From Planctomyces sp. SH-PL62 (GTDB lineage Bacteria; Planctomycetota; Planctomycetia; Planctomycetales; Planctomycetaceae), in NCBI GenBank assembly GCA_945893045.1, contig CAMDEA010000005.1:42899-106898 (forward strand): 64,000 nt of DNA, read 5' to 3'. The notes beneath the pieces are model-generated. The model was given only the letters and a program-made list of their open reading frames with translations, had not been told where the DNA came from and searched no databases. Shown here in pieces: positions 1,442 through 64,000 of the stretch (positions are counted from its first letter, which is position 1; the number at the start of each line of letters is the position of its first letter). Both the position numbers and the translations under genes were made by a program.

Positions 1442-3040
1442 ATGACTCTGCAAACCAAACGATATCTCATTGGATTTCTCGGCCTGCTTTTTTTGGCTTC
1501 GCTAGTGCTGGTGCAAGCGATGGAGATTGCTCGCAAGCGTGAGGAGGTCGGCATCACGTCGGGACATGTCGCGGTGCCGGCGACGTCAAAGAGTTGCGTC
1601 GAGTGTCATGGGAAATCGTCGCCGGGGATCATCGACCATTGGAAATTCAGCACTCACGCTCAAAAGGGTGTCGGATGCGTCGAATGCCATCTGGCTCAGA
1701 AGGGGGATGTCGATGGCTTTACGCATTACGGCCATCTCATCGCGACCGTGGTGACTCCGAAGGACTGCGGACGATGTCACGAGAAGGAGACGACCGAGTT
1801 CACTCACAGCCATCATGCGAAAGCGGGGAACATTCTCGCGTCGCTCGACAATTTTTTGGCCGAGACCGTCGAGGGTTCACGGACGCCGTTCAATCCGCAT
1901 TCGCCGACACCGGGCAAGCCGGACATTCACGAAGTCAACGGGATGTCGAGCGCCGCCGTCGGTTGTCAGCAGTGTCACGGCAGCAAGGTGGCGTTGCTGG
2001 CGAAGGACGGCGGAAAGATCACGCTCGATGACTTGAAGCCCGATGCGAAAGGGCAGCCGACAAATCTGGATGTGCTCGACCGCATCGCCAAGACCGAAGA
2101 CGGCCGACCAAAGTTGCATGCCGACACTTGGCCGAACACCGGCATCGGGCGGTTGAATCTCGATGGCTCGTTGGGTTCGTGCTCGGCGTGTCACAGCCGG
2201 CATGACTTCTCGCCGCGACGTGCGCGGCAGCCGGAGAACTGCGGCAAGTGCCACCTCGGTCCGGATCATCCGCAGAAAGAAATCTACGAAGAGTCGAAGC
2301 ACGGCGTGGCGTTTCGTGACCTCAAGGATCACATGAATCTCAACGCCAAGGATTGGGTGCTGGGCAAGGATTACTCGCAGGCTCCGACGTGCGCGACGTG
2401 TCACATGTCGGGTCACTCGAAGAACGGCGGGACGATCACGCACGATCCCGGCAAGCGCATCTCGTGGACGAACCGGCCGCCGGTCAGCGCGGTGCTCGAT
2501 ACCGATGCGAACGGCAAGCTCGTCACTGAAGCCGATCCGGCCAAGCGGCGTGCGCTCGTCACGTTCTCGGCCGAGGAGAAGCGGACCAACATGAAGCAGG
2601 TCTGTCATCACTGCCACACGCCCGATTACGTCAATGGGTTCTACAAGCAATACGACGACTTCATCGTGAACTACAACGAGAAGTTCGGCAAGCCGGGCCA
2701 GGCGATCATCGCCGCGATGCGGAAGCACGAACTGCTCACCAAGACCGAGTTCGATGAGGAGATCGAATGGACCTGGTTCTATCTCTGGCACCACGAGGGC
2801 CGGCGTGCCCGGCACGGAGCGTCGATGATGGCTCCCGATTACGCTCACTGGCACGGCATGTTTGAAGTGGCTGAGCGGTTTTACATGAAGCTCATCCCGC
2901 AAGCTCGCGAGATCACCAAGCACGCCGCCGAATCCGGCCAGGCCGATCAAGCGCGGGCCGTCAACGCGGTCATCGACGAAATCCTCGCCCGCCCCGAACA
3001 CATGTGGCAGGACACCGGCAAGAAGCCGGCCGCGAAGTAG
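1442..3040 (+). CDS. Octaheme cytochrome c, hydroxylamine oxidoreductase (HAO) family-like
   Basis: Eight CXXCH motifs (CVECH, CVECH, CGRCH, CQQCH, CSACH, CGKCH, CATCH, CHHCH); N-terminal signal/anchor; HAO-like tail HEGRRARHGASMMAPDYAHWHGMFEV. ORF track start is 1400; ATG at 1442 preferred. Confidence 0.85.
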   Translation: MTLQTKRYLIGFLGLLFLASLVLVQAMEIARKREEVGITSGHVAVPATSKSCVECHGKSSPGIIDHWKFSTHAQKGVGCVECHLAQKGDVDGFTHYGHLIATVVTPKDCGRCHEKETTEFTHSHHAKAGNILASLDNFLAETVEGSRTPFNPHSPTPGKPDIHEVNGMSSAAVGCQQCHGSKVALLAKDGGKITLDDLKPDAKGQPTNLDVLDRIAKTEDGRPKLHADTWPNTGIGRLNLDGSLGSCSACHSRHDFSPRRARQPENCGKCHLGPDHPQKEIYEESKHGVAFRDLKDHMNLNAKDWVLGKDYSQAPTCATCHMSGHSKNGGTITHDPGKRISWTNRPPVSAVLDTDANGKLVTEADPAKRRALVTFSAEEKRTNMKQVCHHCHTPDYVNGFYKQYDDFIVNYNEKFGKPGQAIIAAMRKHELLTKTEFDEEIEWTWFYLWHHEGRRARHGASMMAPDYAHWHGMFEVAERFYMKLIPQAREITKHAAESGQADQARAVNAVIDEILARPEHMWQDTGKKPAAK

Positions 3041-3092
3041 TTCGGACGCCTACGTCCGAACGGATCGACCGGACGTAGGCGTCCGGTCTACG
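3037..3092. repeat. Inverted repeat, arm type CGGACG-TAGG-CGTCCG, GTAG...CTAC ends
   Basis: GTAGTTCGGACGCCTACGTCCGAACG...ACCGGACGTAGGCGTCCGGTCTAC; begins within the preceding stop codon. Confidence 0.92.
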
Positions 3093-3184: not shown

Positions 3185-5812
3185 ATGGCATTCAACGCAC
3201 GCACGGTGGTTTTGGTCTTCTCCGTTCTGATCGTCACGATGCCGACGCTCGTGCCGGCGCAGACGGCTCCGTCGCAGGATGCAGCCGCCTTGGAATTCTT
3301 CGAGAAGAAGATTCGCCCGCTCTTGGCCGACAACTGCTTTAACTGCCATTCGACCAACACGAATTCGCGAGGCGGGCTGCGGGTGGATGATCGCAATGGG
3401 TTGATCGCGGGGGGTGATCGTGGGGCGGCCATCGTTCCGGGCGATCCCGAAAAGAGTTTGCTGATCAAGGCGGTGCGGCAGACGGACAAGCTCAAGATGC
3501 CGCCGATGAAGCAGCTCACTGAGCAGCAGATCGCCGACCTCACCAAATGGATTCAAGACGGAGCCGTCTGGCCGCAAGTCGAATTCACGCTACCGAAAGG
3601 CGATCCCACTCCCGAATACGCCAGACTGCGCAAAGAGCATTGGGCGTGGCAGCCGCTGCGGGACGTGAAAGCTCCGACCGTTCGCTTGGCCGATTGGGCG
3701 CGTGGTGAGATTGATCAATTCCTTCAAGCCAAACTGGAGCAGCAAGGACTGACTCCGGTCAGCGATGCGGACAAGATCACGCTGATCCGCCGCGTGACGT
3801 TTGATTTAACCGGTCTGCCGCCAACGCTCGATGAGATCGCCGCGTTCGTGAAGGACGATTCCACGACGGCGTTCGAGACGCTCGTCGATCGCTTGCTGGC
3901 CTCGGCCGGGTTTGGTGAGCGTTGGGGCCGGCACTGGTTGGATGTGGCTCGGTATGGCGAATCGACCGGCTCGGCGCGCAATCTTCCGTACCCTCATGCG
4001 TGGCGGTATCGAGACTACGTCATCGACGCTTTCAATAATGACAAGCCGTATGACCAGTTCCTTCGCGAGCAGATTGCCGGCGACCTGCTCCCCGCGACAT
4101 CGGAAGCCCAGCGCGATGAGCAACTGATCGCGACCGGGTTCCTGGCGCTCGGCGTGAAGGACGTTAATCAGCGATACAAAGTCCGCTTCGTCATGGACAA
4201 CGTCGATGAGCAGATCGACACAGTCAGCCGCGCGGTGCTCGGCCTGACGGCAAGTTGTGCTCGCTGCCACGACCACAAATTCGATCCGATTCCGCAGACG
4301 GACTATTACGCATTGGCGGGTATCTTCCGCAGCACGGACCTGTGTGCTGGCGTGCGGAACAAGATGGGGGGCGGCGGACTCGATTACTACGACACCGACC
4401 TGCTGTTGAAGCTGGGGTCAGCACCAAGTTCGAGTGCCGACTCGGCGACGAAGCGCGATGAGATCAAGAAGGCACTGGCTGAAGCCCGCGCCGAGTTGCA
4501 GGCACTGGCCGACAGCAAAGAAGGAAACGAACTCGCCCCGGACGGACGGCAGAAGAACGTCATCGCACGCGAGAAAGTCGCGAAGCTGCAAGCGGAGATG
4601 CTCGCGCTCAGTGACCCGGCGATGCAGGGGCCGGTCGCGTTCGGTGTTCGCGATTCGCAATCCATCAGCGACACCGAAATTCGTGTGCGCGGCGAAGCCG
4701 AAAAACTTGGTCCGGTTGTGGCACGCGGATTCCTCGGCACGATCCCGGTCCCCGATGCACCGCCAGTGAATCCGAATCAAAGCGGCCGGTTGGAATTGGC
4801 TCAGTGGTTGACCAGCGAGAAGAACCCGCTCACGTCGCGCGTGATGGTCAATCGGATTTGGCAGCACTTGTTCGGTCAAGGATTGGTGCTCAGCGTCGAT
4901 AACTTTGGAGTGACCGGCGATGCGCCGTCGCATCCGGAGTTGTTGGATCATCTGGCGCAGCGATTCGTTCGCGAGGGGTGGTCGGTCAAGAAGCTCGTGC
5001 GAGCGATCGTGTTGACCCGCGCGTATCAACTCGGATCGGAGACTCCCTCAACCCACATGGCGACTGATCCCGCGAACGAGTTGGTCTGGCGGCACAGCCC
5101 GCGACGGCTCGATGCCGAAGAGATTCGGGACGCGACTCTGGCGGCGGCCGGAACGCTGAATCTGTCTCGCCCTGAGGCATCGCTCGCGAAGGACTTCAAA
5201 GTCACTGAACTGCGCAACAACGGCCCGGAAGCTCAACGGCTCTTGAGCGGTGCCGTTCGCAACACACAGCGCAGCGTCTATCTGCCGCTGGTCCGGAACA
5301 TCACGCCGACGTCGCTGGACGTCTTTGACTTTGCCACGCAAGGCATGGTCACCGGCAGCCGCGACACGACGACGGTGGCGACTCAAGCTCTGTACCTCTT
5401 GAACGACCCATTCGTGCGCCGCCAGTCGTTGGCCTTTGCCGATCGACTTCTCAAACAAACCGACCTGAACGACGCCGCTCGCGTGGACTTGGCGTATCAA
5501 TTGGCAATGGGCCGGGCCGCGACGACCGCCGAGATCGAACGTGGCACGAACTATCTGACGGACTACGCAGCGGCCGCTCGTGAAGTCCCGGCTCCGAAGA
5601 TCGCGCAAGCACCGCGCCAACGAGCGGCCGACAAAGCTCCGGCGGTCGCGACAAACGCGCAAGCGGCGGCGATCATCAACCCCGATCAAGTTCCGCGCGA
5701 GGAAGAAACGGCGCAGCACGAATTCATCGAGCCAACGGATCCCCGACACGCCGCTTGGTTCAGTTTCTGCCAAGCGCTGCTGGGGAGCGCGGAGTTTCGT
5801 TTTATTAAGTAG
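3185..5812 (+). CDS. PSCyt1 (cytochrome c-like) / DUF1549 / DUF1553 planctomycete protein
   Basis: Signal peptide, FFEKKIRPLLADNCFNCHS, GLPPTLDEI, WGRHWLDVARYGES, CARCHDHKFDPI, NRIWQHLFGQGLV. Upstream in-frame start at 3095 also possible. Confidence 0.92.
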   Translation: MAFNARTVVLVFSVLIVTMPTLVPAQTAPSQDAAALEFFEKKIRPLLADNCFNCHSTNTNSRGGLRVDDRNGLIAGGDRGAAIVPGDPEKSLLIKAVRQTDKLKMPPMKQLTEQQIADLTKWIQDGAVWPQVEFTLPKGDPTPEYARLRKEHWAWQPLRDVKAPTVRLADWARGEIDQFLQAKLEQQGLTPVSDADKITLIRRVTFDLTGLPPTLDEIAAFVKDDSTTAFETLVDRLLASAGFGERWGRHWLDVARYGESTGSARNLPYPHAWRYRDYVIDAFNNDKPYDQFLREQIAGDLLPATSEAQRDEQLIATGFLALGVKDVNQRYKVRFVMDNVDEQIDTVSRAVLGLTASCARCHDHKFDPIPQTDYYALAGIFRSTDLCAGVRNKMGGGGLDYYDTDLLLKLGSAPSSSADSATKRDEIKKALAEARAELQALADSKEGNELAPDGRQKNVIAREKVAKLQAEMLALSDPAMQGPVAFGVRDSQSISDTEIRVRGEAEKLGPVVARGFLGTIPVPDAPPVNPNQSGRLELAQWLTSEKNPLTSRVMVNRIWQHLFGQGLVLSVDNFGVTGDAPSHPELLDHLAQRFVREGWSVKKLVRAIVLTRAYQLGSETPSTHMATDPANELVWRHSPRRLDAEEIRDATLAAAGTLNLSRPEASLAKDFKVTELRNNGPEAQRLLSGAVRNTQRSVYLPLVRNITPTSLDVFDFATQGMVTGSRDTTTVATQALYLLNDPFVRRQSLAFADRLLKQTDLNDAARVDLAYQLAMGRAATTAEIERGTNYLTDYAAAAREVPAPKIAQAPRQRAADKAPAVATNAQAAAIINPDQVPREEETAQHEFIEPTDPRHAAWFSFCQALLGSAEFRFIK

Positions 5813-5866
5813 TTCGGACGCCTACGTCCGAACGATTGCCAGACTGGACGTAGGCGTCCGGTCTAC
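5809..5866. repeat. Inverted repeat, same arm type as 3037-3092
   Basis: GTAGTTCGGACGCCTACGTCCGAACG...GGACGTAGGCGTCCGGTCTAC. Confidence 0.92.
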
Positions 5867-8471: not shown

Positions 8472-8538
8472 GTAGCCACGTTCGCCAGAACGTGGGTTTT
8501 CCGTGAGTTGTTCCCACGTTCTGGCGAACGTGGCTACG
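8472..8538. repeat. Inverted repeat between convergent genes, arm GTAGCCACGTTCGCCAGAACGTGG
   Basis: GTAGCCACGTTCGCCAGAACGTGGG...CCCACGTTCTGGCGAACGTGGCTAC. Confidence 0.93.
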
Positions 8539-17356: not shown

Positions 17357-17412
17357 CGTAGACCGGACGCCTACGTCCGGTCATTCAACAGTTCGGACGT
17401 AGGCGTCCGAAC
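17357..17412. repeat. Inverted repeat, CGGACGTAGGCGTCCG arm type
   Basis: GTAGACCGGACGCCTACGTCCGGTC...GTTCGGACGTAGGCGTCCGAAC. Confidence 0.92.
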
Positions 17413-25208: not shown

Positions 25209-28200
25209 ATGCCGACCCTGACATCACCAGAACCTGACTTGCCAACCCCGCTGCCAAGTCAGCCCACCCCACGCAAACGCAAGGTGATGGTCAGCAGCAC
25301 CGCGCGGGATTTGCCGGATCATCGCCAGGATGTGCTCGATGCCTGCCTCAGGCAGAGCTTCGATCCGATCATGATGGAGCACCTGCCGGCCATGGATGCG
25401 AATGCCATCCAGGCGTCGCTCGACATGGTGGATGAGGCCGACATCTATCTTGGCATTTTCGCGTACCGCTACGGCTGGGTGCCGGGCTTCGACAATCCGC
25501 AGCAGATCTCCATCACCGAGATGGAGTACCGCCGCGCCGTTGAACGGGACATGCCGAGGTTGATCTTCTTCATGCACGACGATCATCCGGTGCGACCGTC
25601 CGACGTCGAGACCGGTGACGGAGCGGCCAAGCTCAAGAAACTCAAGGACGAGATCGGCTCGCTGCGAGTCGCCGGGATCTTTAAGTCGTCCGAACATCTG
25701 CGTTCGCTGTTGATCGACTCATTGTCGAAGCTGCCCAAGAGCGACGCCGAACAGAAGCGGCAGACCGAGTTCCATTACGTCAGCCCGATCCCGCCGGCTC
25801 CTGAGGTGTACGTCGCGCATCCCTACACGCTGCTGACCGCGCCGGGTGGTCTCGTCGGACGACGGCACGAATTGAACTGGCTCACCGATTGGGTGGCGGG
25901 GACTCGGCATGCGGCTGACTCGCTGGGCGTGTCCCACCAAGCGGCCATGAATCGCATCGTCAGCCGGCTGCATCGGTCGCGTTTGTTTTTCTTCGTGGCG
26001 ATCGGCGGGCAGGGGAAGAGTGCGTTGGCTTGGCACTGGTTTCAGAACATCGCCGACCAGGAAATGCGACCGCTGGCCGGGCGCATGTGGTGGAGCTTCT
26101 ACGAGTCCGATGCCAGCTTCGAGAATTTCGTGATTCGCGCGTTGGCGTACACGGCGAAGATCTCGATCGAGCAAGCCAAAGCGCAGCCCGTGGCGGAGCG
26201 TGAAGCGTGGCTGCTGCATCTGCTCGACACGCAGCCGTTTCTGATCGTGCTGGATGGGTTGGAGCGGCTGTTGCTGGCGTACTCGGGCGGGAACGTGCGG
26301 GGGTTGGAGGACGACGAACTCGATCAGCGCACCGCGCATCGTGTGGCCGAAGCGTATGGTCTCGATGAAACGGCGGCGCAGTCCTACACAGGGCAAGCTC
26401 GGCTGCGGCTGACGTCCGATCCGCGCGTCGGTTCGTTTCTGCGCAAGCTGACTCATGTGCGAGCCGCGCGAGTGCTGGTGACGACCCGACTATATCCGTC
26501 GGACTTGCAAATCGACGCGTTGGGCGAGCCGGTGACGTCGTGCTTCGCGTACTTCCTGCCGGGGCTGAGCGACGATGACGCGCTGGAGTTGTGGCGGTCG
26601 TTCGGAGCACGCGGTGCGCGCGAGAACGTGCTGCCGGTGTTGGCGTCGTTCGAGAAGCATTCGTTGCTCGTGCAGGCTCTGGCCAGCGAGGTCGCGAGAG
26701 ACCGCTCGGCGCGCGGCGATTTCGAAAAGTGGCGGGCCGAGCATCCCGACTTCAATCCGTTCGGTCTGGCTCACGATCAACGCCGCTCGCATGTATTGAG
26801 CCATGCACTGCGCGGGTTGAGCGGCTCGCACATCTGGCTGCTGCAAACCATCGCGGCGTTCCGCATGCCGACAACATACGAAACGCTCAAGGACTTGGCT
26901 TGTAGGATGGGCACTCTTGCCCATCCGTCTTCGCGTAAGAAGTCGGCTCGAAAGCGCGGTGCCAAAGATCAAACACAAAATGTGACGGGCAAGAGTGCCC
27001 ATCCTACGTTCGATCAAGCGGCGCTGGATGCCGCGTTGACGGAGCTGGAAGACCGCGGGTTGGTGGGCTGGGACCGAGCGGCGAATCGCTATGACTTGCA
27101 CCCGATCGTGCGGGGCGTGGTGTGGAACTCGCTGGGCCAGGAGCGTCGCCGCGAAGTCTGCGAGACGCTGCAAGCGCACTTCCAACCCATCGAAGTGCCG
27201 GACCACTTGAACGTCACCAGCCTCGAAGACCTGACGCCCGCCATCGAGCTATTTCACGCGCTGATCGAACTGGGCCGCTTCGACGACGCCTGCGACGTGT
27301 TTTACAACCGATTGGACACTGCGACGCTGTACCGACTGAGTGCCAGTCGCCTGCGGATCGAACTGGTCGAGCGGCTGTTCCCCGACGGCACCGACCGGCT
27401 CCCGCGAGTCAGCACACCGCGCGATCAGAGCTACACGCTCAATTCGCTGGCGGGGGCCTACCTCTTGAGCGGCCAGCCGAAATCCGCCGTGCCGCTGTTT
27501 CGCCGGGTCTGTGACCTTGACGAGGAATCCAAAGACCAAAGCAACCTGAGCATCGGCTGCAATAACTTGTCGTACGCCGAGCGGCTGTCAGGTGCCGTGC
27601 GAGCAGCCGAAGTCTCAGCCCGCTCCGCCTTGCGGATCACGCGCGAACTTGGAGACGAGTTCGAGGAAGCCATGAGTTTGCTGATGTTCGGATTGGGATT
27701 AGCCGTGCGTTTCAAAAAAGTTGCCGAGTCAGAGATCAGACACGAAGTCCTCACTGCTCTGGAAACCTCGCAACAACAGTTCGAGCAACTCGGTGATAAA
27801 CAAATGACCGGTGTCGTGTCCGCCTCCCGCGCCGCAGTCGCCCTGTGGTTCGGCGAGGGTGTGATCGCGCGGACGCTGGCCGATCGGGCCTGGGAAATGG
27901 CTGCCGTCTGGAAGCAAGAAGCGGATTTCATCCGTGCCGCGCGGCTGCAAGGGACGGCGGCTTTGCGTTGCTCAGGCGGCCCGCCCGAATCCGAGCAGAC
28001 GAGTCGCTCGCTCTACGAGTTCGCTAACGAGCGGCTGCATCACGCCCTGACCCGCGCTCGCAAGTGCGATCTCGTCGACGAAGAACTCCCCACGCTGATC
28101 GCGCTGGCGGAACTGCATGAGGCGCTGGCTCGCACTCCCGTAGCCACGCTCGCCAGAGTGAGGGGCGAGGGCACGCACGCTGTCGCCTCGCCGACCCACG

Positions 28201-28670
28201 CTCTGGCGAGCGTGGCTACTTCGCATGACGGCACGCTTGGTTCCCCGCTGGGTCGGCGCGAGCCGGAGTCGTTGACGACGTCGCTGCAACTCACGCCGGC
28301 TGAGCATCTCGATCAAGCCGAGCGGTTGCTGGACGACGTCTGGGACCGCGCCGAGCGAGGTCCATATCCGCTGTTCCAAGCCGACGCCTTCAACCGCCTG
28401 GCCAGCCTCGAACGGACCTGCGCCGCGCTGCTCCCAGCCGACTCGCCGGAACGAACCACCGCCCTCGACCGAGCCGGAAAAGCCGCGCTCCGAGCCTACG
28501 AAAAAGCCTGGCTCGACGGCCCTCCTTTCGCCTACGCCTTCGGCTTGAGCAACGCCGCCGCGCACCTCGCCGACCTCGGCATCACGCCACCCGACCTGCC
28601 ACCCTACGATGATTCCCGATTCCCACCCATGCCCGATGAACCTATCGTGCGGAAGAAAAGTAGCCCGTAG
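25209..28670 (+). CDS. DUF4062 - STAND/NB-ARC-like NTPase - TPR-like protein
   Basis: N-terminal KVMVSSTARDLPDHRQDVLDACLRQ..DIYLGIFAYRYGWVP (DUF4062-like); P-loop AIGGQGKSALAWHWF; Walker B PFLIVLDGLERLL; helical-repeat C-terminal half; two in-frame inverted repeats. Confidence 0.85.
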   Translation: MPTLTSPEPDLPTPLPSQPTPRKRKVMVSSTARDLPDHRQDVLDACLRQSFDPIMMEHLPAMDANAIQASLDMVDEADIYLGIFAYRYGWVPGFDNPQQISITEMEYRRAVERDMPRLIFFMHDDHPVRPSDVETGDGAAKLKKLKDEIGSLRVAGIFKSSEHLRSLLIDSLSKLPKSDAEQKRQTEFHYVSPIPPAPEVYVAHPYTLLTAPGGLVGRRHELNWLTDWVAGTRHAADSLGVSHQAAMNRIVSRLHRSRLFFFVAIGGQGKSALAWHWFQNIADQEMRPLAGRMWWSFYESDASFENFVIRALAYTAKISIEQAKAQPVAEREAWLLHLLDTQPFLIVLDGLERLLLAYSGGNVRGLEDDELDQRTAHRVAEAYGLDETAAQSYTGQARLRLTSDPRVGSFLRKLTHVRAARVLVTTRLYPSDLQIDALGEPVTSCFAYFLPGLSDDDALELWRSFGARGARENVLPVLASFEKHSLLVQALASEVARDRSARGDFEKWRAEHPDFNPFGLAHDQRRSHVLSHALRGLSGSHIWLLQTIAAFRMPTTYETLKDLACRMGTLAHPSSRKKSARKRGAKDQTQNVTGKSAHPTFDQAALDAALTELEDRGLVGWDRAANRYDLHPIVRGVVWNSLGQERRREVCETLQAHFQPIEVPDHLNVTSLEDLTPAIELFHALIELGRFDDACDVFYNRLDTATLYRLSASRLRIELVERLFPDGTDRLPRVSTPRDQSYTLNSLAGAYLLSGQPKSAVPLFRRVCDLDEESKDQSNLSIGCNNLSYAERLSGAVRAAEVSARSALRITRELGDEFEEAMSLLMFGLGLAVRFKKVAESEIRHEVLTALETSQQQFEQLGDKQMTGVVSASRAAVALWFGEGVIARTLADRAWEMAAVWKQEADFIRAARLQGTAALRCSGGPPESEQTSRSLYEFANERLHHALTRARKCDLVDEELPTLIALAELHEALARTPVATLARVRGEGTHAVASPTHALASVATSHDGTLGSPLGRREPESLTTSLQLTPAEHLDQAERLLDDVWDRAERGPYPLFQADAFNRLASLERTCAALLPADSPERTTALDRAGKAALRAYEKAWLDGPPFAYAFGLSNAAAHLADLGITPPDLPPYDDSRFPPMPDEPIVRKKSSP
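26902..27007. repeat. Inverted repeat in frame inside DUF4062-STAND CDS
   Basis: GTAGGATGGGCACTCTTGCCCATCCGTC...GACGGGCAAGAGTGCCCATCCTAC. Confidence 0.92.
28140..28219. repeat. Second inverted repeat in frame inside DUF4062-STAND CDS
   Basis: GTAGCCACGCTCGCCAGAGTGAGGGGCGAG...CTCGCCGACCCACGCTCTGGCGAGCGTGGCTAC. Confidence 0.9.
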
Positions 28671-32096: not shown

Positions 32097-32156
32097 CCGT
32101 ACCGCGACCGTTAGGGAGCGGCCAACGCGGGCCGCTCCCTAACGGTCGCGGTACGG
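32097..32156. repeat. Inverted repeat, arm CCGTACCGCGACCGTTAGGGAGCGGCC
   Basis: CCGTACCGCGACCGTTAGGGAGCGGCC...GGCCGCTCCCTAACGGTCGCGGTACGG; overlaps the 3' end of kdpD. Confidence 0.95.
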
Positions 32157-34193
32157 TAGCGTGAATCGAAACACGGCACCGCTGTCGGCGTCCGAACGAT
32201 TGGCCGCCTCGATGCGTCCGCCGTGGAGTTCGACCATGCCCTTGCAAATCGCCAAGCCCAAACCGCTGCCGCTGTGTTTGTGCTGGTCGGCTTGGACAAA
32301 CTTCTCAAACAAACGTTGCCCTTGGCTAAGCGGAATTCCAGGCCCGTGATCGGCGACCTCCACAGCCAACGCGGATTCCGTGGCTGTGACCGACAGTTCA
32401 ATCGGCGAACCTGCCGGAGCAAACTTCGCGGCGTTGTCGAGCAAGTTGATGAGCACCTGCTGAATCAGAATCTCGTCGATCGGCACCGGCGGCAGGTCGA
32501 TCGGCACGTTGGTTTGCACAGGGTGATCGCGAAGCTGCCGTTCCAACCGCCGCAGGACAACTCCGATGACATCGTCGATCGGTTGCAGTTCCCGTTGCAG
32601 TGGAATCGCTCCCGCTTGCAATCGTGTCAGGTCCAACAAGTTGGCAACCAGCCGATTGAGTCGATCCGCTTCATCGAGGATCGAGACCGCCAACTCATGC
32701 TGCTGTTCTGCGGGAAGTTGCTCGCGCTGTTCGGCGAGCAAGCTTGCGGCACCGGCGATCCCCGTCAACGGCGTGCGCAGGTCGTGGGACACGGAACTCA
32801 ACAGCGAACTCCGCATCTGCTCGGTCTGAATGCTCAGTTGAGATTCTTGAACTTCCAGCAACGACAGGTCGCGTTCGATCGCCAACGCGATCAGGCTGGC
32901 GCATGTTTCCAGGAGTCGGCGTTGATCGGGATCAAGCAAGCGTTTTGGATCATCTGGTTTGATACCGACGGCACCGATGGTCTGTCGTGTTCCGATCAGC
33001 GGGACGAACAACGCCGTGGCATTGGACAGCGTGTCGGTGCCCGCGCCGGCGATCTGGTTGTGCATCGCGACCCACTGCGCCGCTTGGGTATTGATTGGTT
33101 GACCGGCAACGCTCGTGCCCGTGCCGAATCGCAGCAGCAGGGGGCCATTCAGTTCGCGAGCGAACAGCACGACCTCACCGGGAAACATCTCGCGCAGCCG
33201 TTGGCTGGCCGTGCGAATCAAGAACTCCGTTCCAGACACCTCGCTGAGTTGCTGCGTGAGCCGATACAGCGCCGCCGTGCGATACTCTTGCGATTGCGTG
33301 GCGGCCAACTGCTCGTGAATGCGTGCGGTCAGCGTGCTGACCAGCAGACCGATGCCCAGCATCACACCAAACGTCAACAGGTATTGGGCGTCGTTCACGG
33401 TGAAGCTGAAATGCGGCGGCACGAAGAAAAAGTCGAAGACCAACACATTCACGACGGCGGCCACGATGGCCGGACCTCGGCCATAGCGTGTCGCCACGAA
33501 TACGACGCCCAACAAAAAGAGCATGACGATGTTGGCTTCGGCCAAGCCCAGCAATTGGCTCAGCCGTCCCAATAATCCGCACATGGCGATGATCCCTGCT
33601 GTCGCCAGAAACCGTTTCCACAACTTGCCCGGCCGGTGCCAGGATGTCGGCTCAACATTGACGTCTGGTTCGCCTTGGCCACGAATGACAGAGATGTCGA
33701 TCTCGCCGCTGAGTTGGAGTAATTCATCGACGACGGTCGCGAACAAGATTTGCCGCCACCACGGCTGTGCGGTCTTGCCGACGACAATTCGAGTGACGTT
33801 GCGGGAGCGAGCGTAATCCAGCACGGTGTTCGCGACGTTAAGGCCGATCAACGTGTGGGTCTCCGCGCCGAGTCGTTCGGCCAGTTGCAAATGTTGCGCG
33901 ATGCGCTGCCGTCGCTGATTGCTCGCCTGACTTTCGCCGCCGGATGACACGGCCACCGCGAGCCACTCGCAGCCAAATGCTGCCGCCATGAGTTTGGCAC
34001 GATGCAGCAACTTGGCCGTCGTGGGACTCGGGCCAACACACACGAGCAGTCGTTCCGCATTCCTGTCGCCCAGGCCCTTGTGGCCTGGGTGATCGGACAG
34101 ATTCGCCAAATCCTCCGAGCCACAAGGGCTCGGGCTACAGGCTGCGTGTGGCAGGCGAGCGGATACATCGAGATGGGAGTGATTGTCAGTCAT
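32139..34193 (-). CDS. kdpD: KdpD-like sensor histidine kinase (USP + DUF4118 + GAF + HisKA/HATPase)
   Basis: VGKTAQPWWRQILF; DUF4118 TM block; SSVSHDLRTPLTGIAGAASLL; DHGPGIPLSQGQRLFEKFVQAD..SGSGLGLAICKGMVELHGG. Lacks the canonical N-terminal KdpD ATP-binding domain; start at 34193 or 34223. Confidence 0.88.
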   Translation of the reverse strand: MTDNHSHLDVSARLPHAACSPSPCGSEDLANLSDHPGHKGLGDRNAERLLVCVGPSPTTAKLLHRAKLMAAAFGCEWLAVAVSSGGESQASNQRRQRIAQHLQLAERLGAETHTLIGLNVANTVLDYARSRNVTRIVVGKTAQPWWRQILFATVVDELLQLSGEIDISVIRGQGEPDVNVEPTSWHRPGKLWKRFLATAGIIAMCGLLGRLSQLLGLAEANIVMLFLLGVVFVATRYGRGPAIVAAVVNVLVFDFFFVPPHFSFTVNDAQYLLTFGVMLGIGLLVSTLTARIHEQLAATQSQEYRTAALYRLTQQLSEVSGTEFLIRTASQRLREMFPGEVVLFARELNGPLLLRFGTGTSVAGQPINTQAAQWVAMHNQIAGAGTDTLSNATALFVPLIGTRQTIGAVGIKPDDPKRLLDPDQRRLLETCASLIALAIERDLSLLEVQESQLSIQTEQMRSSLLSSVSHDLRTPLTGIAGAASLLAEQREQLPAEQQHELAVSILDEADRLNRLVANLLDLTRLQAGAIPLQRELQPIDDVIGVVLRRLERQLRDHPVQTNVPIDLPPVPIDEILIQQVLINLLDNAAKFAPAGSPIELSVTATESALAVEVADHGPGIPLSQGQRLFEKFVQADQHKHSGSGLGLAICKGMVELHGGRIEAANRSDADSGAVFRFTLPYRDR
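34062..34141. repeat. Inverted repeat inside N-terminal part of kdpD
   Basis: CCTGTCGCCCAGGCCCTTGTGGCCTGGG...CCGAGCCACAAGGGCTCGGGCTACAGG. Confidence 0.87.
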
Positions 34194-43953: not shown

Positions 43954-44038
43954 TCCGTACCGCGACCGTAGCCTGACTCTCCGAGTCGGGCGTCTTCCGA
44001 ACAGATCCCGACTCGGAGAGTCGGGCTACGGCGGTCGC
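43954..44038. repeat. Composite inverted repeat: GTAGCC(T/C)GACTCTCCGAGTCGGGC element flanked by CCGTACCGCGACCG-type remnants
   Basis: CCGTACCGCGACC|GTAGCCTGACTCTCCGAGTCGGGC...CCCGACTCGGAGAGTCGGGCTAC|GGCGGTCGC. Confidence 0.85.
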
Positions 44039-47654: not shown

Positions 47655-47707
47655 GTAGACCGGTCACTCCGTGACCGGAAATTCGGGTCACGGAGTGACC
47701 CGTCTAC
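47655..47707. repeat. Inverted repeat, GTAGACCGGTCACTCCGTGACCGG arm type
   Basis: GTAGACCGGTCACTCCGTGACCGG...CGGGTCACGGAGTGACCCGTCTAC. Confidence 0.92.
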
Positions 47708-49477: not shown

Positions 49478-49524
49478 CAAACACTCCCATTCCTCCGCCT
49501 TCGGCGGAGGAATGGGAGTGTTTG
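49478..49524. terminator. Perfect hairpin between convergent genes, possible bidirectional terminator
   Basis: CAAACACTCCCATTCCTCCGCC TTC GGCGGAGGAATGGGAGTGTTTG, closes on a C(TTCG)G loop. Confidence 0.7.
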
Positions 49525-50355: not shown

Positions 50356-50490
50356 GGCGAGCGGGGCGGCGTCAGCCATCGTAGTAGGCACATTCCATGT
50401 GCCGTCGGCGTTGCTCTGGCTGACGGCACATGGAATGTGCCTGCTACTTTCCAGGGTGAGCATCGGGGGGCTGACGCCGCCCCGCTCGCC
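50356..50490. repeat. Nested inverted repeats (outer GGCGAGCGGGGCGGCGTCAGCC, inner GTAGGCACATTCCATGTGCCGTC at 50384-50447)
   Basis: Both arm pairs read directly. Confidence 0.92.
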
Positions 50491-59319: not shown

Positions 59320-59387
59320 GTAGCCAATCTCGCCAGAGATTGGGCGGTTTGAGAATCCATCACCCAAGCTCTGGCGAGCTTGGCTAC
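59320..59387. repeat. Inverted repeat, GTAGCCAATCTCGCCAGAGATTGG arm type
   Basis: GTAGCCAATCTCGCCAGAGATTGGG...CCCAAGCTCTGGCGAGCTTGGCTAC. Confidence 0.93.
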
Positions 59388-60837: not shown

Positions 60838-62871
60838 ATGAGTTTTGGCAGAAAAATGGAGGGCAGAAAAATGGTTTCACGCTGTTGCCGGTCGATCTTT
60901 TTGCCCTTCATTTTTTTGCCAGCCCTGTATCCCGCCAGCCAATTACTCGCCGGCCCGCGCGTCGACATCGTCATCGGCGAGAAGGCTCCCGCGCTGGAAC
61001 GGCTCGCGGCGGATGAGTTATCCAGCCAACTCAAACGAATCTATGAAGCCGAAGTGAAGATCGGCTCAACCGCGCCGGCTGATGCGCCGCACGTTCTCTT
61101 CGTCGGCAACCCAGACACGAACGCCAGCATGAAACCGTTCGCCGACTCCTGGCCGAGCGGCGACAAGAAGCTGACCGACCAAGGGCACTTGCTGCGCAGC
61201 GTCACCCATCGCGACCGCCCCGCGCTACTGATCGGCGGCGGCAGCCCGGTCGCGACGTATTGGGCCGTCGCCGAGTTCGGCCACCGGCTCGGCATTCGAC
61301 CGATGCTGTTCGGCGATCTCGATCCGATCAGCCCGCCCGAGTTCAAGCTCGATGGGATTGAGATCGTGCTCGAACCGCAGCATCGCGAGCGTGAATGGCA
61401 CTTCCGCAACCAGGGGCCAATGGATTCCGGTTCTTGGAGCGTGGACGAGCATCGCCGCGTGCTTCAGCAGCTTGCAAAACTCAAGTTCAATCGAGTGAGC
61501 ATCAACGTGCGAGCCTCACAGCCGTTCGTGCATTTTGAGTTTCAAGGCGTGCCACGAAAAACGGACGGACTTTGGGGATTCCAGGACCGCGCGTATTCGG
61601 TGTCGGGAGACACGTTGGGCCGGAAGGTTTTCGGCGGAGCCAAGCTGTTCGAGAATCCCAGCTTTGCCGGAGCGACGAGCTACGAAGATCGCATCGCGGC
61701 CGGCAAGAAGCATCTGACGGGAATCGTTGATGCCGCTCACGCCGTTGGGATGCCGGTTCGATTGCAGCTTCGCCCGGATTGGTTTCCGGGAGACTTCGGA
61801 GCGTTCGTGAAGGAACCCAAAGGGATGCAAGGCCGCGATGGCCCGCACGTTGTCGCTGATCCGTCCGCTTTCTTCCGTGATGACAAGACGCTGAAGCTGG
61901 CCCAAGCACAAATGCGTGCCTACCTCGACGCTTACCCGGCAGTGGATGGCATCGACCTGGAATTCGGCGCGGCGAAGGTCTCCGAAAAACAGTTTCGACG
62001 AGTCTTTCCCGATCAAGACTTTTGGCGGCGAGCGGATGGCCGCGACGTGAACGTGCGAGTTCGGGTCAATGAGTATCCCGCGAGAACCTACACGGCGCTG
62101 GACCAACTTGGTCAGCCGCGAGATTTCCAAGTGGCTCAGCCCATGCTTTTGCTGACCGAAGAGGAAGATTTCGTTCCGAGCAGCCCCGCCAATTTCCCGG
62201 AGAAGTTTGAGGCGGCGCGGCAGCGCAGCTCGAACAATTACCTGGTCGATCCGGAGGGGATCAGCGACCTCGATCTTCCCCTCTATTGGCTCAGCCGCAA
62301 CAGCTTTGGCGCGAAGCTGACGTTCGAGCAGACATGTCGCGAGGTGCTCGATCCGACATGCGGCGAAGGGGTCGCCGATCGCGTTCTCGCAGCGTTCCAA
62401 CGAAACCATCAAGCTCAGCAACTGATGCAACGCTTGTCTTTTGGCGGTGGCATGGCGGGACCAGTGGACCTGCGGCAGATCGACTGGGCCGTGAGTAAGA
62501 ATCCCATGAATCTCACTTCGGCAACGGACGACTATCTCAATGCCATGAACGAGATGTACCGAGCCAACACCCGCGCGCGCGAAGGCGGCCGGGCCTTCAC
62601 GTTGTATTGGGCGCGGCGATTTGAGTTCGCGTTCGAGTATCTGAACTTCGCTCAAGCCGTTCAGAAGGCGAGTGTCGCCGAAAAGGCGAAAGAGACCGGG
62701 ACTCAAATCGCCGAGTTGGAAAAGGGAATCGAGTCACTCAACAACGCCTTGAACGCGATGGCGGCGGTGGCTCGCAGCAACAGTGATCGCGGGTTGATCG
62801 CGGTGCTCAACGAGTACGGTTATCGTCCGCTCAAGAAGAAACTGGCCGAGGCGGAAGCGGCTGCGAAGTGA
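60838..62871 (+). CDS. Glycoside-hydrolase-like secreted protein (GH20-like N-terminal domain)
   Basis: VDIVIGEKAPALERLAADELSSQLKRIYEAEVKIG; large catalytic-like region with DGIDLEFG; start within an inverted repeat (in-frame ATGs at 60838, 60856, 60871). Confidence 0.65.
   Translation: MSFGRKMEGRKMVSRCCRSIFLPFIFLPALYPASQLLAGPRVDIVIGEKAPALERLAADELSSQLKRIYEAEVKIGSTAPADAPHVLFVGNPDTNASMKPFADSWPSGDKKLTDQGHLLRSVTHRDRPALLIGGGSPVATYWAVAEFGHRLGIRPMLFGDLDPISPPEFKLDGIEIVLEPQHREREWHFRNQGPMDSGSWSVDEHRRVLQQLAKLKFNRVSINVRASQPFVHFEFQGVPRKTDGLWGFQDRAYSVSGDTLGRKVFGGAKLFENPSFAGATSYEDRIAAGKKHLTGIVDAAHAVGMPVRLQLRPDWFPGDFGAFVKEPKGMQGRDGPHVVADPSAFFRDDKTLKLAQAQMRAYLDAYPAVDGIDLEFGAAKVSEKQFRRVFPDQDFWRRADGRDVNVRVRVNEYPARTYTALDQLGQPRDFQVAQPMLLLTEEEDFVPSSPANFPEKFEAARQRSSNNYLVDPEGISDLDLPLYWLSRNSFGAKLTFEQTCREVLDPTCGEGVADRVLAAFQRNHQAQQLMQRLSFGGGMAGPVDLRQIDWAVSKNPMNLTSATDDYLNAMNEMYRANTRAREGGRAFTLYWARRFEFAFEYLNFAQAVQKASVAEKAKETGTQIAELEKGIESLNNALNAMAAVARSNSDRGLIAVLNEYGYRPLKKKLAEAEAAAK
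60845..60921. repeat. Inverted repeat over the start/signal peptide of the GH-like gene
   Basis: TTGGCAGAAAAATGGAGGGCAGAAAAAT...ATCTTTTTGCCCTTCATTTTTTTGCCAG. Confidence 0.87.
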
Positions 62872-62872
62872 A

Positions 62873-62989
62873 TTTGGAGTGCGGTGACCCAAGTCACCGC
62901 TTTTCAAAACGCGCCGTTGCGCGTGAAGGCATTCAGTCGTATGTTCGATGCGTGTTGAAAAGCGACGACTTGGGTCGTCGCACTCCAAA
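62873..62989. repeat. Inverted repeat, arm TTTGGAGTGCGGTGACCCAAGTCACCGCTTTTCAA
   Basis: Arm 2 TTGAAAAGCGACGACTTGGGTCGTCGCACTCCAAA. Confidence 0.92.
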
Positions 62990-62998
62990 GGGATGAAA

Positions 62999-63898: not shown

Positions 63899-64000
63899 CT
63901 TTGGAGTGCGGTGTGTCAGCACCGCTTTGGACTGTCCTTACTCTGCACTCTGCGAGCTTTGCGCCACTGCGTGAAATCTGGCCTCACGCAGAGGCGCAAA
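63899..64000. repeat. Composite inverted-repeat region truncated by window end
   Basis: TTTGGAGTGCGGTGTGTCAGCACCGCTTTGG followed by CTCTGCGAGCTTTGCGCCACTGCGTGA...TCACGCAGAGGCGCAAA. Confidence 0.88.

Follow-up and report, generated by a model that had tools for sequence, protein, structure and literature searches.

The element at positions 62873–62989 of the window (the whole 64,000-nt stretch of DNA analysed here) is a pair of inverted REP hairpins of the kind spread by RAYTs, and belongs to a seemingly undescribed sub-type tagged by GGAG or GGAC. Pairs within an arm are preserved and those between arms are not; what began as a hunch from reading the letters has now been counted. It is very likely, in our judgement, that each arm is a REP hairpin acting as the single-strand substrate of a RAYT, and that 62873–62989 comes from a GGAG variant paired with an enzyme of the NHYH clade; binding, cleavage and mobility of the arms are what we infer from these patterns.

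Structure and genomic setting

Direct reading of the window shows that the arms of 62873–62989 form two perfect 8-bp hairpins with unlike stem letters, just as the preliminary description had it: arms that differ from each other, each self-complementary. The full order is TTTGGAGT-GCGGTGAC-CCAA-GTCACCGC-TTTT ... AAAA-GCGACGAC-TTGG-GTCGTCGC-ACTCCAAA. The element takes up nearly all of the 121-nt gap from a stop at 62871 to the likely start, at 62993, of a gene that appears DapA-like from its translation.

Both arms carry GGAG, not the GTAG/GTGG 5′ foot that defines a GTAG-tagged REP. In the wider sense of a REP, a short, multi-copy and mostly intergenic hairpin, the element qualifies by its position between genes, and two inverted REPs at a short, typical distance make it a BIME/REPIN. 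The same pattern had been claimed at 3037, 17357, 34062, 47655 and 59320. All five are as described, except that the head or foot is mutated in two arms and the six elements are not one family; since GGAG at 62873–62989 stands against GTAG-type heads in the other five, two related systems are present (Table 1).

Table 1. REP arms and dimers in the window
Feature	Positions	Strand	Description	Previously named
Left REP arm	62874–62904	+	TT-GGAG head 62876–62879, then T; stem GCGGTGAC/GTCACCGC 62881–62900; loop CCAA; TTTT tail	
Right REP arm, inverted	62958–62989	-	Stem GCGACGAC/GTCGTCGC 62962–62981, TTGG between; GGAG head on minus strand 62983–62986; TTT tail	
Single GGAG-headed REP arm	63901–63928	+	Other sub-family (TTGGAGTGCGGTGTGTCAGCACCGCTTT); directly after the putative DapA-like gene	
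GTAG REP heterodimer	3037–3091	.	Loop CCTA	yes
GTAG REP heterodimer	5809–5866	.	Loop CCTA; right arm with one mismatch	
GTAG REP homodimer	8472–8537	.	Loop GCCA	
REP heterodimer	17358–17412	.	Loop CCTA; right arm (at 17391) without CTAC foot	yes
GTAG REP dimer	26902–27007	.	Loop CTCT; within open reading frame	
GTAG REP dimer	28140–28219	.	Loop GCCA; same open reading frame as 26902–27007; left arm partly decayed	
REP heterodimer	34069–34138	.	Loop CTTGT; left head GTCG (mutated)	yes
GTAG REP dimer	43968–44029	.	Loop TCC (CCCGACTC type)	
GTAG REP heterodimer	47655–47707	.	Loop TCC	yes
GTAG REP homodimer	50381–50447	.	GGCACAT-TCC family	
GTAG REP heterodimer	59320–59387	.	Loop GCCA	yes

REPs in the window are mostly intergenic. 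One reading frame, 25209–28670 on the plus strand (1153 aa), stays open across two dimers (CTCT, 26902–27007; GCCA, 28140–28219), and REP-encoded stretches would be added to its protein; REPs inside genes are already known (PMC3733652). Two long perfect hairpins with short loops, at 32097–32156 and 49478–49524 (stems of 27 and 22 bp), lie outside the REP families.

REP families across the genome

Heads and loops were scanned for enrichment over 1.264 Mb of this genome, and dimers were gathered by genome-wide pattern searches. Within the 1.264 Mb, no tetramer is more enriched at hairpin feet than GTAG, the hairpins sort by loop (TCC, TTCC, GCCA, CTTGT, CCTA and others), and sites picked by head and loop alone fall into two groups, an unpaired background and a fully paired class. 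For instance, 15 of 19 GTAG-N8-CCTA sites have all 8 of 8 pairs, as against 0 with control heads of the same composition. The scans for TCC and TTCC have additional peaks at two pairs, which, judged from their spacing, are cross-matches among the TCC, TTCC and GGCACAT families. Free-stem patterns for inverted dimers matched 48 times genome-wide for CCTA, 199 for TCC, 117 for TTCC (the TCC and TTCC patterns overlap), 74 for GCCA and 52 for CTTGT, and 0–1 times when reversed as a control. The GGAG pattern gave 17+20 matches in this genome and 76+75 in sister genome G006, with 0–2 in the control.

Pairing within and between arms

Five families, gathered with stems wholly or largely unconstrained, were used to count pairing: all CCTA dimers, the first ~50 places listed for GCCA and TCC, CTTGT dimers shorter than 80 bp, and GGAG arms. 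Across the 190 dimers listed, 290 of the positions that differ between arms keep both within-arm pairs and lose both between-arm pairs, and the reverse occurs at 0. The total is made up of 79 + 25 + 69 + 36 positions from CCTA, GCCA, CTTGT and TCC together and 81 from GGAG, among the dimers listed. That paired changes arise inside an arm at the expense of pairing between arms, as proposed from the window, holds genome-wide among these dimers.

The two variable pairs of CCTA are Watson-Crick in 94/96 and 92/96 arms, where shuffled halves would give 33 and 44; GCCA, CTTGT and TCC behave similarly among the matches listed. The GGAG sample consists of 94 arms, of which sister genome G006 supplied 89 and this genome 5; the search that found them prescribed nothing but the head, two stem bases at either end of the hairpin and the TTT tail. 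All 6 of the 6 free stem pairs covary, 554 of 564 cells are paired, and 23 distinct stems are represented. Wherever a stem pair varies strongly in the five families, within-arm pairing survives double changes. The permutation tests take copies as unrelated and ignore their kinship; inheritance alone is nonetheless unlikely to be the cause, because each column holds many paired types and single-sided intermediates are rare. Intra-arm and inter-arm covariation, which the preliminary description proposed to compare, were assessed by permutation in place of R-scape, with a within-arm signal and no between-arm-only position as the outcome.

Homodimers and heterodimers

Families differ in how often their two arms are the same. 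Compared with what the observed arms would give if joined at random, homodimers are scarce in CCTA (1/48 versus 9.5 expected, P = 0.0004) and in short CTTGT dimers (2/28 versus 6.6, P = 0.014), and weakly so in GGAG (2/41 versus 6.0, P = 0.04), these P values being indicative only since dimers may be copied whole. Among the matches listed, TCC homodimers are at the random level (12 versus 12.6 expected) and GCCA homodimers are in excess (23/40 versus 9.4). In the GGCACAT family both arms of every dimer seen have an identical 7-bp stem, and some TCC dimers are perfect 52-bp palindromes. Because the window itself holds homodimers (8472–8537 and 50381–50447) and in some families most or all dimers are homodimers, differing arms are not general, and the heterodimer examples first put forward are real but selected. 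A strong homodimer shortage in one family and an excess in another bear on a question raised in 2013 without an answer: what makes heterodimers the prevailing form in many REP families (PMC3733652).

Two further features of dimer architecture were seen. The GTAGNA-GGCACAT-TCC-ATGTGCC family, present at 50381–50447 and many places genome-wide, has homodimers only; they are of near-constant length (67 bp in most cases) and their middle is largely conserved, which sets this family apart from the others. Genome-wide, almost every CTTGT dimer of ~74 bp is a heterodimer that joins CCAGGCC to CCGACCC or CCGAGCC, and almost every one of ~90 bp is a CCGACCC homodimer; spacer length and arm choice go together in this family.

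RAYT genes and the GGA[GC] head

Five RAYT-type genes of this genome score well against NF047646, a REP-transposase model. Around four of them, REPs of a single family lie on either side: TTCC (L088), CTTGT (L089), CTT (L090) and GCT (L091). The fifth, with an NHFH motif, has no flanking REPs, like the published subclass 2.1 RAYT genes (PMC6006769). In this genome no RAYT was found adjoining copies of the CCTA, GCCA or TCC families; further RAYTs flanked by their own REP family occur in related genomes. Two class 3-type Y1 transposase genes (L008 and L010, on contigs C8 and C2 of this genome) carry NHVH and Y...EAQ motifs. L010 is no more than a candidate enzyme for the TCC family, since the TCC dimer nearest to it lies ~850 bp downstream, on one side only.

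The probable RAYT of the GGAG family was seen in other genomes. In sister genomes, RAYTs bearing an NHYH motif have TTGGA[GC]T-GC...GC-TTT hairpins on their flanks. In this genome the copies beside RAYT genes are those of GTAG families; copies of the GGAG family adjoin such genes in the sister genome and elsewhere, but not here: a search of this assembly, which is 89% complete, found no NHYH RAYT and no other RAYT for the GGAG family. The GGAG copies of this genome could be orphans; alternatively, the assembly could lack the NHYH gene. Species genomes searched with an NHYH protein alignment yielded 210 relatives, of which 80, mostly from Verrucomicrobiota and Planctomycetota, were fetched. TGGA[GC]TGC lies within 500 bp of the NHYH RAYT at 73 of these 80 loci, on both sides in 61, and its density is 253 in 75.7 kb near the genes versus 13 in 136.8 kb far from them (3.3 versus 0.1 per kb, 35-fold). 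At two NHYH loci (L202 and L220) the flanking hairpins have the exact head and 8-bp stem of the left arm of 62873–62989, with TT as the loop, not CCAA. Another NHYH RAYT (L247), from another family of the same class and not from the relatives' scan, lies between GGAG hairpins with two different stems.

Heads called by rule were GGA[GC] at 48 of the scan loci and GT[AG]G at 0. Among other RAYT loci, all 7 of 7 with GGA[GC] were NHYH, compared with 1 of 20 with GT[AG]G (L144). On the protein tree all GGA[GC]-labelled proteins fall, along with L144, in one clade (SH-aLRT 97), and two changes of head class suffice. A sister branch of NHYH RAYTs (L150, L163, L164 and L144) has REP stems of 6–8 bp and heads TTGGAGT, TTGGTGT or GTAGT, and is a possible set of intermediates in the head change. 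The NHYH clade has the marks of a RAYT/TnpAREP: an invariant NHYH, a single Y and an N in Y..(x3)N. The only significant solved relative of its profile is E. coli TnpArep 4er8 (E 2.4e-6), and its scores against NF047646 lie near or above the 80-bit cut-off.

In the main text of the non-subscription papers searched, RAYT, REP and GGAG appeared nowhere together and nothing relevant appeared with TTGGAGTGCGG; the GGAG/GGAC head is provisionally an undescribed REP tag. We lean towards the broader reading that a RAYT clade in the Planctomycetota-Verrucomicrobiota group gave up the GT[AG]G guide, which is nearly universal, and took GGA[GC] in its place, so that another large REP super-family arose in addition to those tagged by GTAG and by CGTC. 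For GGAC, in which the last guide base differs, the published guide-to-cleavage-site rule predicts a changed cleavage dinucleotide (PMC8266576). RAYT/REP pairs in which head and enzyme have changed together form a natural set for testing the guide-recognition code of TnpAREP.

Mechanism and alternative explanations

Each half-element is a REP, an unpaired 5′ tetranucleotide head followed by a perfect ~8-bp hairpin with a family-specific loop, and two inverted REPs make the usual unit, the BIME/REPIN. RAYTs (TnpAREP), HUH single-tyrosine enzymes, copy REPs by binding one folded strand, the head-bearing one, reading the head and parts of the loop and stem, and cutting nearby. The stem would have to pair and its letters would be largely free; with each arm's own hairpin mattering, a stem change would persist chiefly when its partner in the same arm changes too. 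For 62873–62989 the head of the variant is GGAG, with GGAC in its place in many relatives, and a TTT tail follows the stem; its enzyme would belong to the NHYH-motif RAYT clade present in sister species. Single-strand hairpin recognition, already suggested in the preliminary description and here ascribed to a RAYT, is the best mechanism because RAYT genes are REP-flanked on both sides, each with its own loop; that the same hairpins flank the genes makes such recognition probable. In published work only one REP strand is recognised by TnpAREP, as single-stranded DNA, with activity dependent on GTAG, and group 3 TnpAREP requires loop bases and a perfect stem (PMC8266576). These needs fit what is kept and what varies here.

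A single long stem, or cruciform, between the two arms could instead be the selected structure. It would account for the GCCA homodimer excess among the matches listed, the invariable homodimers of GGCACAT and the perfect palindromes among TCC dimers; since homodimers are common in some families, the long stem is not always sacrificed, and the proposal of two tandem hairpins in place of one long stem stands with that reservation. As a general explanation, however, one inter-arm stem is ruled out by the 290 to 0 count and contradicted for heterodimeric families, CCTA dimers even avoiding homodimers, and we regard it as scarcely credible. It is also highly improbable that the hairpins work mainly as RNA, as terminators or 3′ mRNA stabilisers between genes. 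The mostly intergenic placement, the short TTT(T) tail of the GGAG family and the surplus of head-strand G.T wobbles over A.C mismatches (25 versus 11 over the five families, a small, post hoc tally) speak for such a role. An intrinsic-terminator search found no site at 62873–62989 and Rfam had no match anywhere in the window, which disposes of an intrinsic terminator there and of a known Rfam RNA; the fixed unpaired head, the family-specific loops, the inverted dimers and the flanking RAYT genes would be left unexplained, and an open reading frame also contains REPs. RNA function could still be a secondary role of REPs.

Short inverted repeats are known substrates of template switching, and correction of quasipalindromes in replication could yield within-arm perfection with neither selection nor protein recognition. 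In one genome (G028), where the genes checked included no NHYH RAYT, 42/54 arms are perfect, as such correction would have it. In another (G016, 86% complete), whose one RAYT found is of NHWH type, only 18/38 arms are perfect, which suggests decay and not correction; the idea that arms decay once the NHYH RAYT is missing agrees with G016 and does not agree with G028. Template switching also leaves the invariant head and loop and the RAYT association unexplained, and as the main cause it is highly improbable. Recognition of each arm by a RAYT remains our preferred explanation.

Comparison with known systems

GTAG-tagged REPs and their inverted dimers (Di Nocera et al. 2013, PMC3733652) resemble the present elements in their 20–30 nt hairpins with an unpaired head, in stem positions that offer complementary alternatives, in dimers whose two stems may or may not be the same, and in their copies beside RAYT genes, insertions inside genes and presence in the Planctomycetes-Verrucomicrobia group; 62873–62989 departs from them by GGAG and its TTT tail. 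As in REPINs (Bertels and Rainey 2011, PMC3116915), the repeated unit is two inverted REPs, although the dimer arms here often have different stems, non-randomly by family. The NHYH clade shares with RAYT/TnpAREP (subclasses, PMC6006769; structure, 4er8) the HUH motif, the catalytic Y, an N four residues on and flanking REPs, and differs in its YVHQNAxxHG motif and in flanking heads that are GGA[GC], not GT[AG]G. RAYT subclass 2.8 is also NHYH but was reported with GT[AG]G heads (PMC6006769). TIRtrons/TIRYT (PMC3733652) and class 3 Y1 genes, the latter present in Planctomycetes (PMC6006769), likewise combine Y1 genes with non-GTAG flanking repeats; the TIR consensus is GGGGWSAS with a CnGA foot, unlike GGA[GC]T here, and class 3 genes have NHVH and YV..EQ motifs, unlike the NHYH clade. 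On this comparison the elements are mostly of a known kind, the exception being the GGAG-headed element at 62873–62989.
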